Source: Alphaproteobacteria bacterium (GTDB lineage: Bacteria > Pseudomonadota > Alphaproteobacteria > UBA9219). Taken from it: a DNA stretch of 64,000 nucleotides. The notes below the pieces were generated by a model that saw nothing but the letters and a program-made list of their open reading frames with translations, searched no databases and had not been told where the DNA came from. How positions within the stretch are numbered: position 1 is the stretch's first letter; every line of letters starts with the position of its first letter. The stretch spans positions 1 through 64,000 of the forward strand of contig JAFALY010000010.1 in the NCBI GenBank assembly GCA_019233975.1, written 5' to 3'. Below are positions 988 through 14,183 of this stretch, piece after piece. The position numbers and the translations under genes are program-made.

Positions 988-1017
988 TTGACAGCCAAGC
1001 CCCCAAATTGCTTAAAT
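988..1017 (+). promoter_or_regulatory. Sigma-70-type promoter of the methionine operon
   Basis: A perfect TTGACA (988-993) is followed after 18 bases by TTAAAT (1012-1017), four of six matches to the -10 consensus. Transcription would start near 1024, about 15 bases before the riboswitch aptamer, which fits a riboswitch-led message. Assignment is by consensus match only. Confidence 0.55.
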
Positions 1018-1037
1018 GGCCCTCGTGCAATGTTTGC

Positions 1038-1091
1038 ACCGCGGGATTTGACAGGACAGCTTGCTGCCGCGACACCAACAGCTAAAGCGCC
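1038..1091 (+). promoter_or_regulatory. SAM-II (SAM-alpha) riboswitch
   Basis: The stretch shows the SAM-II layout. A P1 stem CGCGG (1040-1044) pairs with CCGCG (1067-1071). The conserved GATTT follows the 5' strand directly (1045-1049), a GCTTGC-type loop segment precedes the 3' strand, and the diagnostic tail AGCTAAAG lies about ten bases after P1 (1080-1087). SAM-II elements are short pseudoknots, known mainly from alphaproteobacteria, that sense S-adenosylmethionine upstream of metA, metX and related genes. This one lies in the leader of an operon containing metA. The tail segment AAGCGC (1085-1090) could instead pair with GCGCTT (1112-1117), giving a possible alternative fold. Confidence 0.88.
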
Positions 1092-1152
1092 ATGGTATAG
1101 TTCGATTTTTAGCGCTTCGACACCGTGGTACCTGAGGGCAATCTGCGCAAGC

Positions 1153-1186
1153 AGGCCCGCATGGCATGGTCGTTGGGGCTTTTTTT
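1153..1186 (+). terminator. Possible regulatory terminator in the metA-operon leader
   Basis: AGGCCC (1153-1158) can pair with GGGCTT (1176-1181), with one G-U pair and a long loop, and overlaps a run of seven T (1180-1186). The stem is weak. It sits between the SAM-II aptamer and the first gene, so a transcriptional expression platform is conceivable. Control of the ribosome binding site is the alternative. Confidence 0.3.
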
Positions 1187-1240
1187 ATAGCTTTTTTCGG
1201 CGGCGATTGCGGGATTTTGAAAGAAGAAGGTATTGAGCCA

Positions 1241-2227
1241 ATGACTGAACAGAAAAAGACGCGGGCGCTGGGCCTGCCGATGATTTACCAACTGACCGAT
1301 ACGGGCGATGAGGCTGACCAGATCAAGTCCGCCTGGCAATGGGCGTTGGGTATCTGGCGGACAGTGCCGGAGGAGGATTGTTACTATCCGCACACAGACG
1401 GGTATTATGACGGGCATCAGCTGGACATCCAGCATCATACCTCTACCCTGTCGATCGGCGCACGCACGGCCATTCTGGTCAACAACCCGACGCGCACCAA
1501 GCGCCTGATTATCGCCGTCAATGCCGCCCCGAATGACAACGAAAACGGCACACAGAATAATCATCGCAAAAACTTTTACTGCGCCCTGCTGAAAGACGGC
1601 ACGGTTATTTGCGGCACGACGGCGGGTTATGAATTTTCCTATATCCGGGATCAGATCGCGGAGATGTACGATCTGACCGCGACGAATGAACTCGGCTCGC
1701 AATTCAGGAACCGCGATATCCTGCCCCATTACACGGTCAAGTTCGCAGACCCCGTTTCCCGCGCCGCCTTGTTACAGGAGAAGAACGCGGACGGCACGCC
1801 CAAACTGGTGCGCGTTAATGTCGATGACGTTGTGCTCAAGCCGCCGGAGAAGAGCCATGTTTACGCGGTCGACAGCTCAGGAAACGTTAAGCTGTATTTA
1901 TCCGAAGCCGATAAAACCTTTATCCGGCGCGCGGCTGAGACCGGGCAGCGCGTACGCGTTGAGTTTGCGACAGCGTCGCTGGAGCTTGTGAATCCCCTGA
2001 CACCGGGCGGTCAACACGACTTCCACGAAGCGTTTGATGTTGCGGTCAGACCATCCTTCTTTGCCGCCAAAGATCGCGAAATTATCCTGACCACACATTG
2101 CAGCACCAAGCGCAGCGATGGCGAGGAAATCGAGCAAATCGCACAGGTACGAACCAACCACGCGACATCCAAGCCCGATTACCCCATCCCGACTGTCGGC
2201 GCGGAAGTGCGCCTGTCATTGGCATAG
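1241..2227 (+). CDS. Unknown protein of the SAM-controlled metA operon, weakly like SAM-hydroxide adenosyltransferase (DUF62)
   Basis: The protein has 328 residues. The ATG at 1241 is chosen because a good purine-rich site (AAAGAAGAAGG) precedes it. The N-terminus has a strand ending in QLTDTG (17-22), recalling the LTDFG of DUF62. NNPTRTKRLIIAVN (81-94) sits where the family has its VVDPGVG strand. FRNRDILPHY (155-164) resembles the F-x-x-RD-x-x-AP block between the two domains. VYAVDSSGNVKL (207-218) resembles the D-x-FGN-xx-TN core of the C-terminal barrel. Several family catalytic motifs are clearly different, so the match is an inference, not a firm assignment. The gene is the first of an operon under the SAM-II riboswitch and ends one base before metA, which strongly suggests a role in methionine or SAM metabolism. 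Confidence 0.5.
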   Translation: MTEQKKTRALGLPMIYQLTDTGDEADQIKSAWQWALGIWRTVPEEDCYYPHTDGYYDGHQLDIQHHTSTLSIGARTAILVNNPTRTKRLIIAVNAAPNDNENGTQNNHRKNFYCALLKDGTVICGTTAGYEFSYIRDQIAEMYDLTATNELGSQFRNRDILPHYTVKFADPVSRAALLQEKNADGTPKLVRVNVDDVVLKPPEKSHVYAVDSSGNVKLYLSEADKTFIRRAAETGQRVRVEFATASLELVNPLTPGGQHDFHEAFDVAVRPSFFAAKDREIILTTHCSTKRSDGEEIEQIAQVRTNHATSKPDYPIPTVGAEVRLSLA

Positions 2228-2228
2228 C

Positions 2229-3203
2229 ATGCCGGTTATTGTCGACAGCCAGCACCCGCACCCGTTTCTGCCATCGCTGCAATCGGGCACGGCCATCGAC
2301 ATCTGGCGCGCCGAACATCAGGATATCCGCCCGATGGAAATCGCCATTTTAAACCTGATGGCGGACAAACGCGCGACCGAGCAGCAATTGGCCGAATGGC
2401 TGGGGCATACGATATTACAGGTCAAACTGACCTTTATCGCGCCGGACCGGTATATCGATAAAATCGAGCAAGGGCATGAACCCGGCCACACGCCGCGCGA
2501 ACATATCGAAAAATTCTATCAGCGATGGAGCCGCGTACGGCATCAGAAGTTCGATGGATTGATCATAACAGGCGTGAATGCGCGGGAACGCGACATAACG
2601 CAGGAATCCGTCTGGCCGGAGGTGGTGGAAATTCTGGAATGGTCGAAACGGCATGTGCTGTCAACCCTGTTTCTATGCTGGGGGGCATTGGCCGCTCTGC
2701 ACCATTTCCATGCCATCGGCCACCGCAAGGCCGAGCGCAAAGTCTACGGGCTGTATGACCACAAACTGGGCCCAGACAAAACGGGTTTACTGCGCGGTTT
2801 TCCTGATTTGTTTCAGGTACCGGTTTCACGTTGGCGTCATATCGACCTGCAGGCGCTGGCGCAAAACACCCTGCTTGAAGCCGTTGCCACATCCACAGAA
2901 ACCGGCGCCAACATTATAGTGGAAAGCGACAACTACGATCAGGGTCGCGGATGTTTTGCACGACGCATCTATGTGTTAAATCATCCGGAATATGCGGCGG
3001 ATACATTGCGCCTGGAATATGAACGTGACCACGCCCAAGACCCCGCCACACCGCCGCCCGCACATTATTTTCAAGACGGCAATACAGAAAAAACGCCCCC
3101 CAACAGCTGGCGACACACGGCGCAGCTTTATGCCAACTGGGTGCATATGATTTACGAAGCGACGCCCTTTGACATCGCCGATATTCCAAACACCTTTGGT
3201 TGA
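2229..3203 (+). CDS. metA: Homoserine O-acyltransferase MetA (divergent)
   Basis: The protein has 324 residues, close to the family length. It activates homoserine with an acyl-CoA in methionine synthesis. RPMEIAILNLMADKRATE carries the conserved lysine (K47). LFLCWGALAAL holds the nucleophile C150. The HPEY block gives H252 and E254, so the catalytic triad is intact. SRWRHIDL and the C-terminal TPFDI are also family signatures. Two things are odd. The loop that reads GAPLG or GAPVE in other MetA proteins, where the last residue is linked to succinyl or acetyl choice, reads GVNAR here with arginine (R119). The GHPEYD block is NHPEYA. The ATG at 2229 lies one base after the preceding stop, so the two genes are surely co-transcribed and translationally coupled. 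Confidence 0.88.
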   Translation: MPVIVDSQHPHPFLPSLQSGTAIDIWRAEHQDIRPMEIAILNLMADKRATEQQLAEWLGHTILQVKLTFIAPDRYIDKIEQGHEPGHTPREHIEKFYQRWSRVRHQKFDGLIITGVNARERDITQESVWPEVVEILEWSKRHVLSTLFLCWGALAALHHFHAIGHRKAERKVYGLYDHKLGPDKTGLLRGFPDLFQVPVSRWRHIDLQALAQNTLLEAVATSTETGANIIVESDNYDQGRGCFARRIYVLNHPEYAADTLRLEYERDHAQDPATPPPAHYFQDGNTEKTPPNSWRHTAQLYANWVHMIYEATPFDIADIPNTFG

Positions 3204-12952: not shown

Positions 12953-13046
12953 GCCGGAACCATTTTTGTCATAAGGCAGGCAAAGTTAGGCAATAACCCG
13001 CAGTGTGACAAGGATTATTGTGGCCATCCCGCAACACCCGCAGATA

Positions 13047-14183
13047 TTAAGAGAACAGGCCCCGTATATAGGCAATAACCTTTAAGTGGACCAGATCGTT
13101 CCATGTCGCAAAAACCATCAGCGACAACACCATCGCCATGCCGACTCGCATGCCGATATCCTGCAGTTTTTCGTGTAGGGGCTGACCGCGCAGCTTTTCG
13201 TATGTATAGAAAGCCAGATGCCCGCCATCCAGAAGCGGCACGGGGAACAGGTTGATGAGCCCCAGATTGATGGAAATGATTCCCATAAACCAGACCAATG
13301 CCCAGACACCGTCCTGCGCCACATGACCGGACATTTCCGCGATACGCAGCGGACCGCCTAATTCTTCGGTTCCGCGCAAGCCCATAATCATTTGCCCGAG
13401 CGCACGCAGCGTGCTGCCTGTGAGGTCGATGGTTTCATTAACCGCCTGACGGACGGCCTTTAAGACCGGCCATTTGCGATATTTCAATTCATCAGATGTT
13501 ATGCCGATGCGGCCCAGTTTGTGTTCGCCACCAAAACGGTCGGTCATGGTGACAATTTCAGGCGTCACGGTCAGAGTCAGGGTTTCTGTGCCACGTTCGA
13601 TTTCCATGGGCACAGGCGTCCCCGCATTCAGGCCAATGATGCGTTTGATATCCTCAAAACGATGCACCTTCTGCCCATCCACCGAGACGATATGGTCATG
13701 CAGTTGTACGCCCGCCTTGGTTGCTGCGCTGTTATCCAGCAAGCCGCTGACATCGGTGGGCGTATAGGGCTGGCCCTGAAAGATGAACAGGACCGTCAGC
13801 ACCAGAATGGCAAACAGGTAATTCGTCACCGGCCCGGCCGCCACAATAGCCATGCGCTTTTCAACCGGTTGATGATAGAAGGCGACCTGTTTTTCTTCTT
13901 CCGTCATGCCTTTGACGGCAGCGTCAGGCGTGCTGGCGGCATCGGCGTCACCGAACATTTTCACATAGCCGCCCAACGGCAACCAGCAAACCTTCCAGCG
14001 CGTGCCATGTGTGTCGGTCCACCCGAAAATCTCGCGCCCGAAGCCGATAGAGAAAGCTTCGATTTTTACACCGCAGCGACGCGCAACCCAGTAATGACCA
14101 TATTCGTGGACAAAGACCACGATGCTGATCACGATGATAAAAGGCAGCAGATATTGCGGCGCGAGCGATAGAAAATTGGACAT
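13047..14183 (-). CDS. rseP: RIP metalloprotease RseP/MmpA
   Basis: The protein has 378 residues. It is an inner-membrane site-2 protease. The zinc motif HEYGH is at 26-30 in the first membrane helix, and the second metal site LDGGH is near residue 320. One PDZ region lies in between (about 125-220, including KAGVQLHDHIVSVDGQKV). Four membrane helices are visible, two at each end. In this class the enzyme cleaves anti-sigma factors or, as MmpA, polarity proteins. It is the first gene of the envelope cluster seen here; dxr and cdsA, frequent upstream partners, are absent. Confidence 0.95.
   Translation of the reverse strand: MSNFLSLAPQYLLPFIIVISIVVFVHEYGHYWVARRCGVKIEAFSIGFGREIFGWTDTHGTRWKVCWLPLGGYVKMFGDADAASTPDAAVKGMTEEEKQVAFYHQPVEKRMAIVAAGPVTNYLFAILVLTVLFIFQGQPYTPTDVSGLLDNSAATKAGVQLHDHIVSVDGQKVHRFEDIKRIIGLNAGTPVPMEIERGTETLTLTVTPEIVTMTDRFGGEHKLGRIGITSDELKYRKWPVLKAVRQAVNETIDLTGSTLRALGQMIMGLRGTEELGGPLRIAEMSGHVAQDGVWALVWFMGIISINLGLINLFPVPLLDGGHLAFYTYEKLRGQPLHEKLQDIGMRVGMAMVLSLMVFATWNDLVHLKVIAYIRGLFS

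Follow-up and report, generated by a model that had tools for sequence, protein, structure and literature searches.

A SAM-II riboswitch predicted to act as a transcriptional OFF switch ahead of metA and a divergent DUF62-fold gene

Introduction

What does a SAM-II leader regulate when the first gene behind it cannot be placed by sequence profiles, and by what means might it do so? The question is raised by a locus near the start of the alphaproteobacterial contig JAFALY010000010.1, where a candidate aptamer precedes an unannotated open frame (gene 1) and then metA; 'the window' denotes the whole stretch of DNA analysed, 64,000 nucleotides in length. A preliminary description, made from the sequence, had proposed a SAM-II riboswitch leading an operon with an unknown first gene. 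We argue here, with a probability that we would put at roughly 0.87, that the leader is a SAM-II transcriptional OFF switch on a gene 1–metA operon, and that the product of gene 1 is a divergent member of the DUF62 fold, probably something other than an ordinary hydrolase (Table 1). The SAM-II class is already known, and the clade seen here falls below Rfam thresholds; what is new is the riboswitch's hidden target.

Table 1. Features of the leader and operon, and SAM-II leaders found with relatives of gene 1
Feature	Position	Strand	Basis or remark
Promoter candidate	988–1017	+	-35 TTGACA 988–993, 18-nt spacer, -10 TTAAAT 1012–1017
Accessory 5' hairpin P0	1025–1039	+	GTGCAA-TGT-TTGCAC, flush with P1
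SAM-II aptamer (SAM_alpha, RF00521 type)	1039–1095	+	Covariance models, pair covariation
P1 and loop L1	1040–1071	+	1040–1044 with 1067–1071; GATTTG 1045–1050
P2 pseudoknot	1057–1089 (whole P2)	+	1061–1065 with 1080–1085 (U1083 unpaired); pair counts
P2 pseudoknot, further part		+	1057, 1059, 1060 with 1087–1089
Antiterminator P3	1089–1129	+	1089–1096 with 1122–1129; folding, conservation
Intrinsic terminator	1114–1186	+	Stem 1114–1179, U7 1180–1186; folding energy
Shine-Dalgarno-like purine run	1226–1233	+	AAGAAGG, 5' of ATG 1241; sequence
Gene 1, 328 aa	1241–2227	+	Divergent DUF62 / SAM hydroxide adenosyltransferase fold (predicted), hydrolase triad altered
metA, homoserine O-acyltransferase	2229–3203	+	PF04204
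Leader in G027	C7:318317–318374	-	Before relative 317242–318147
Leader in G078	C186:14084–14138	-	Before relative 13024–13911
Leader in G267	C8:109376–109431		Before frame holding 109986–110246
Leader in G025	C2:347781–347834		Gene X between leader and relative

The leader aptamer

The SAM-II hallmarks pointed out beforehand are all present, namely P1 (CGCGG/CCGCG), GATTT (1045–1049) and the tail AGCTAAAG (1080–1087). The class, SAM-II or SAM_alpha (RF00521), is the metA motif of Corbino et al. 2005 (PMC1273637), and the window shares with it P1, the GAUUUG loop and the CUUGC/GCUAAA pseudoknot, as well as a site 5' of methionine genes and a terminator 3' of the aptamer. When the Rfam SAM_alpha covariance model is run, as had been suggested, it matches 1031–1105 across its whole length, scoring 26.1 bits with an E-value of 5.8e-4 for the leader, under the gathering score of 36; no Rfam family reaches its gathering threshold in the window. 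The leader is the best RF00521 match of the 1.88-Mb genome (E 6.4e-4), the next scoring 19 bits. Apart from this sub-gathering score, which concerns a search threshold and is no structural feature of the class, the window differs from RF00521 in its tail (GCUAAAGCG), in its clade's flush 5' hairpin P0 and conserved P3 antiterminator, both missing from the Rfam model, and in having a gene of predicted DUF62 fold under the aptamer's control. The SAM-II long-loop family (RF01726) has the same aptamer architecture, but its cut-off is 44 bits and the window reaches only 15.3; some relatives score higher with it (L017 34.3 bits, L087 30.8 bits).

An order-level covariance model (R2), trained on 22 aptamers of the same order with the window excluded, finds the leader at 71.1 bits (E 1e-18), with the next match in the window at 8.6 bits. 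A second match of the riboswitch model in the genome (G000:C6:17717-17797) was rejected as chance, being antisense within a long open frame whose translation resembles the beta chain of a phenylalanyl-tRNA synthetase. Across 91 distinct aptamers, in an alignment fitted to P1 and not to P2, standard pairs make up 98.4% of P1 and P2, and the computed covariation measures, two-sided changes included, all lie above 500 of 500 shuffles. P1 is paired in 98.9% of cells, with two-sided changes in four of its five pairs; P2 is 97–99% paired, and its pairs are nearly invariant other than 1065:1080 (UA 27, AU 21, GC 12). Together with the gene context, in which metA comes second in the window and a methionine regulon is seen in relatives, these computations identify the aptamer as a real SAM-II riboswitch that would be expected to bind SAM.

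Upstream, the promoter had been called good, which is true of its perfect -35 box and less so of its -10: a sigma-70 consensus scan lists nothing there, because TTAAAT is weak. Of 30 leaders from relatives, 25 have a TTGAC-like box 50–65 nt upstream of P1, a count without a chance control. P0, which belongs to none of the Rfam models, has a stem of at least 5 bp in 26 of 30 leaders of the order and 81 of 104 wider leaders (about 23–26% in shuffles), and its arms differ from leader to leader. Downstream, the ATG at 1241 lies about 146 nt 3' of the aptamer, close to the 150 or so bases previously estimated; an ATG at 1166 was discarded as the start of gene 1, lying as it does inside the terminator, whereas that at 1241 has a ribosome site.

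The fold of gene 1

Described at first as unknown, gene 1 does lack a profile match, but its predicted structure points to a divergent protein of the DUF62 fold. Searches of Pfam (SAM_HAT_N and SAM_HAT_C included), NCBIfam, PHROGs, PADLOC and PDB sequences gave nothing usable, and neither back-translated scans of genomic and viral contigs nor tblastn on phages returned a relative. Relatives came to light only through whole-genome searches: those in three genomes of the order (G024, G025, G027) share 35–40% identity, and others occur in the class, with frames open in all of them. Of the four family members found first, one has SAM_HAT_C at E 0.07; the profile is also matched by some of the class relatives, L044 lying above the cut-off at 27.2 bits. 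With hhalign, the five closest members alone gave no significant alignment to canonical DUF62, significance being reached only once bridging sequences were included.

An AlphaFold2 model built from 12 sequences (pLDDT 74, pTM 0.75), which replaced an earlier one from four sequences with the same fold (pLDDT 54), has the two-domain DUF62 architecture. Foldseek places chains of the DUF62 fold in all of its top 18 positions (E 1.1e-9 to 5.8e-6; next 0.07), and VIA gives this fold a Z-score of 17.2 over 236 residues against 5.1 for the next unrelated fold, with SAM hydrolases, chlorinases and fluorinases at Z 14–17 to the model. At the level of prediction, then, the assignment of gene 1 as a divergent protein of the DUF62 / SAM hydroxide adenosyltransferase fold is established.

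An altered active site

Relative to the DUF62 hydrolases (PF01887 and PF20257; PH0463, 1WU8/2WR8, and MJ1651, 2F4N), gene 1 shares the fold over residues 12–328 (Z 15.7–17), the TD-loop Asp and the D...N motif of the C-terminal domain, Asp20, Asp211 and Asn215 matching residues that are invariant in canonical DUF62. It differs in an insertion between Asn94 and Arg109, in being a gene under SAM-II and, above all, in the catalytic triad, described as a strictly conserved feature of DUF62 hydrolases that halogenases lack (PMC10491745). Aligned with eight canonical DUF62 proteins, the Asp-Arg-His of the hydrolases reads Asn94, Arg109 and Arg156 in gene 1 (D68 to N94 and H122 to R156, with R75 kept as R109); Asn94 and Arg156 are invariant in 12 of 12 family members, and Arg109 is invariant only among the five closest. 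The triad is missing too from the SalL chlorinase and FlA fluorinase, which share the fold (Z 14–16) at about 12–17% identity, a likeness of fold only.

From the model and these residues, the gene 1 product has probably kept the ability to bind SAM or some related adenosyl compound, and we would not expect it to be an ordinary SAM hydrolase. That it nonetheless releases adenosine and methionine in the usual way is unlikely: the fold match does include the SAM hydrolases PH0463 and MJ1651, and the three residues matching invariant DUF62 positions are retained, but two of the three triad residues are changed throughout the family, and an enzyme that destroys SAM while being made only at low SAM would be wasteful.

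Because the known catalytic residues are changed, a new SAM-related activity can be sought, and an altered active site in a SAM-splitting fold makes enzyme activity directly testable. We speculate, as a somewhat less unlikely idea which we hold tentatively, that gene 1 might found a new adenosyltransferase branch within the DUF62 fold, produced under SAM scarcity and with a chemistry other than SAM hydrolysis; for example, methionine and a 5'-substituted adenosine could be joined to restore SAM (the halogenase reaction reversed) or, alternatively, a damaged SAM-like compound could be cleared. Were this so, control by SAM-II would amount to feedback on a step of SAM salvage or repair.

Operon, regulon and linkage to SAM-II

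The presence of metA in the operon, as first proposed, is borne out: its product matches the HTS profile PF04204 (E 2.8e-84), though it does not reach the NCBIfam equivalog cut-offs. A single base separates the stop of gene 1 (2227) from the metA ATG (2229), and the two are presumably co-transcribed; hemW is divergent on the other side of the leader, and atpA lies tail to tail downstream. Elsewhere in the order, the regulon under the same motif takes in metA, metE, metF, sirohaem synthase and sulphite/nitrite reductase domains.

It might be supposed that gene 1 is a passenger of the metA operon, its product being degenerate or serving a purely structural purpose, with the DUF62 fold but no role involving SAM. 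Its strong divergence, with neither a Pfam nor an NCBIfam match, speaks for this, as does our failure to find it in the other 23 genomes of the window's family. Against it stand the relatives' open frames and the linkage of the gene 1 family to SAM-II leaders in varied neighbourhoods: in G025, G027, G078 and G267 there is a SAM-II leader and metA is not next, which argues that gene 1 is no passenger of metA. We regard the passenger reading as doubtful, to the same degree as ordinary hydrolysis.

This linkage was computed for six family members, the window's included. Five have a SAM-II leader directly above them, and the sixth, in G024, is reached by contig overlap: the contig end bearing the leader and that bearing the relative carry nearly identical gene fragments, and we infer that the two are joined. 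Each genome has only a few leaders, and it is, by our estimate, very unlikely that all these leader–relative pairs came about by chance. The source genomes of the distant relatives L039–L044 have no listed SAM-II leader. Since the gene lies near atpA in the window, in G027 and in G024, we argue for one ancestral locus, to which metA seems to have been added in the lineage of the window. None of the papers searched mentions DUF62 or 'S-adenosylmethionine hydrolase' along with a riboswitch, and a DUF62-fold member of the SAM-II regulon appears to be unreported; it would widen that regulon beyond the classical methionine genes, to a hidden family that has the SAM-splitting enzymes' fold.

Three further protein families were noted near SAM-II leaders. 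Gene X (L035 2423–3268, minus strand; L036 491–1330, plus; L045 2333–3154, plus) has conserved His motifs (HIPDWHDH-like) and adjoins relatives of gene 1 under SAM-II; it was not found in the window's genome. A small orphan family of about 90–150 aa with a VxRAIVDNxFG motif (L018, L024, L084, L016) occupies, in other genomes of the family, the place that gene 1 has in the window, lying either between SAM-II and metA or by itself under SAM-II; two members scanned had no Pfam match. A large protein (LLxLRPTLRPLxEAxNL..YLAPVL) is common to regions 3' of SAM-II leaders (L015, L033, L023), and the member scanned likewise had no Pfam match.

A model for the switch

The transcriptional mechanism that had been suggested is supported by a strong terminator, a conserved competing stem and folding calculations, although two of its parts need redrawing. 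The stem had been thought weak and followed by seven T; the T run is there, but the stem folds at about -33 to -34 kcal/mol and is the most stable among the leaders compared. Similarly, the alternative pairing put forward for the tail (1085–1090 with 1112–1117) is perfectly complementary, but the stem that is conserved is P3. In relatives, P3 consists of the 8 nt 3' of GCTAAAGCG paired with a downstream copy; a stem of at least 6 bp is found in 30 of 30 leaders against 31% in shuffles, with matched changes between leaders (CCACAG/CTGTGG, TCACAG/CTGTGA, CTACAG/CTGTAG and, in the window, CCATGGT/ACCGTGG), and with a TCCCTG-like motif usually following.

Computed for partial transcripts of the window, the pairing probability of the antiterminator is 0.97–0.99 without ligand and falls to 0–0.2 at most lengths once P1 is fixed and pairing by the L1 strand and the tail is prevented, the SAM-bound state being an imposed constraint and the calculation one of folding thermodynamics only. 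Once complete, the terminator greatly exceeds the antiterminator in stability, and regulation must therefore be kinetic. We propose that, at low SAM, the aptamer tail (1089–1096) would pair with 1122–1129, holding the 5' arm of the terminator such that polymerase reads through. With SAM bound, the pseudoknot would take up the tail through about position 1091 and the antiterminator would fail, allowing the terminator to form and transcription to stop at the U run, 5' of gene 1. Intrinsic terminators have been placed after many SAM-II aptamers (PMC1273637, PMC2258182), and the SAM-II leader of Sinorhizobium meliloti metZ is a predicted terminating riboswitch (PMC9373788); the window shares with it an aptamer followed by a terminator expected upon SAM binding, whereas the target gene differs and P3 is defined within the window's order.

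The aptamer might instead act mainly on translation or RNA stability beside a SAM-independent terminator, as for S. meliloti metA, whose SAM-II terminator is not predicted to respond to SAM (PMC9373788). Some leaders of the order do lack a U tract (L010, L013 and L017, for example), so that termination is not universal in the clade. In the window, though, the ribosome site of gene 1 lies about 130 nt from the aptamer and past the terminator, and the antiterminator, which covaries in relatives, shares bases with the aptamer tail as well as with the terminator arm; this possibility thus seems to us more remote than either alternative reading of gene 1. A chance resemblance, with no riboswitch at 988–1240, would agree with the window's lack of an Rfam match at gathering threshold and can be dismissed on the leave-one-out score, the covariation, the metA context and the terminator.

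A SAM-II clade below Rfam thresholds

The SAM-II aptamer of the window belongs to a clade whose members mostly escape Rfam. In the order, RF00521 at E<=0.01 has matches in 17 of 33 genomes, and only one genome passes the gathering threshold; 14 control genomes gave no match at the same E-value. The clade model at E<=0.01 matches 24 of the 33, and for 23 of these the E-value is 2e-8 or better. Nearly all of the RF00521 matches in the order come from sequences that have CGCGGGATTTGA...CAGCTTGC..CCGCG...GCTAAAGCG in common; three RF00521 matches (L002, L021, L030) were discarded for want of this core motif.

Named carriers of the motif include Nisaea, Thalassobaculum, Inquilinus and Rhodoplanes. 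Across 18 named contigs, all motif-bearing, the Rfam gathering level calls a single SAM_alpha aptamer, the upstream partner of a tandem pair, and the RF00521 threshold therefore looks too strict for the clade. A survey with Rfam profiles reported SAM_alpha in Rhizobiales and Rhodobacterales only (PMC4239095), with which the motif in named Nisaea, Thalassobaculum and Inquilinus records contrasts. Current thresholds thus overlook a whole clade of SAM-II aptamers, one that appears to be unreported.

An alphaproteobacterial-type SAM-II motif was also seen in three records titled Actinomycetota, Coriobacteriia and Mycobacterium (L119, L187, L195), which are probably mis-binned or mislabelled contigs. 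Tandem SAM-II/SAM-II leaders occur in L092 (1367–1556), L101 (1362–1556), L106 (1375–1556) and L112 (1360–1555) and, on the minus strand, in L115 (3563–3739), L103 (1501–1698) and L097 (1501–1716); in these, a more canonical aptamer and a terminator-like element are followed, about 120–160 nt on, by an aptamer of the clade type, and the genes behind them, where read, are cysH-like or metY-like. A looser arrangement is found in G002:C421 (L026/L031) and G015:C247 (L016/L027), where two separate SAM-II leaders lie 610–680 bp apart on one strand, each with its own gene 3' of it.
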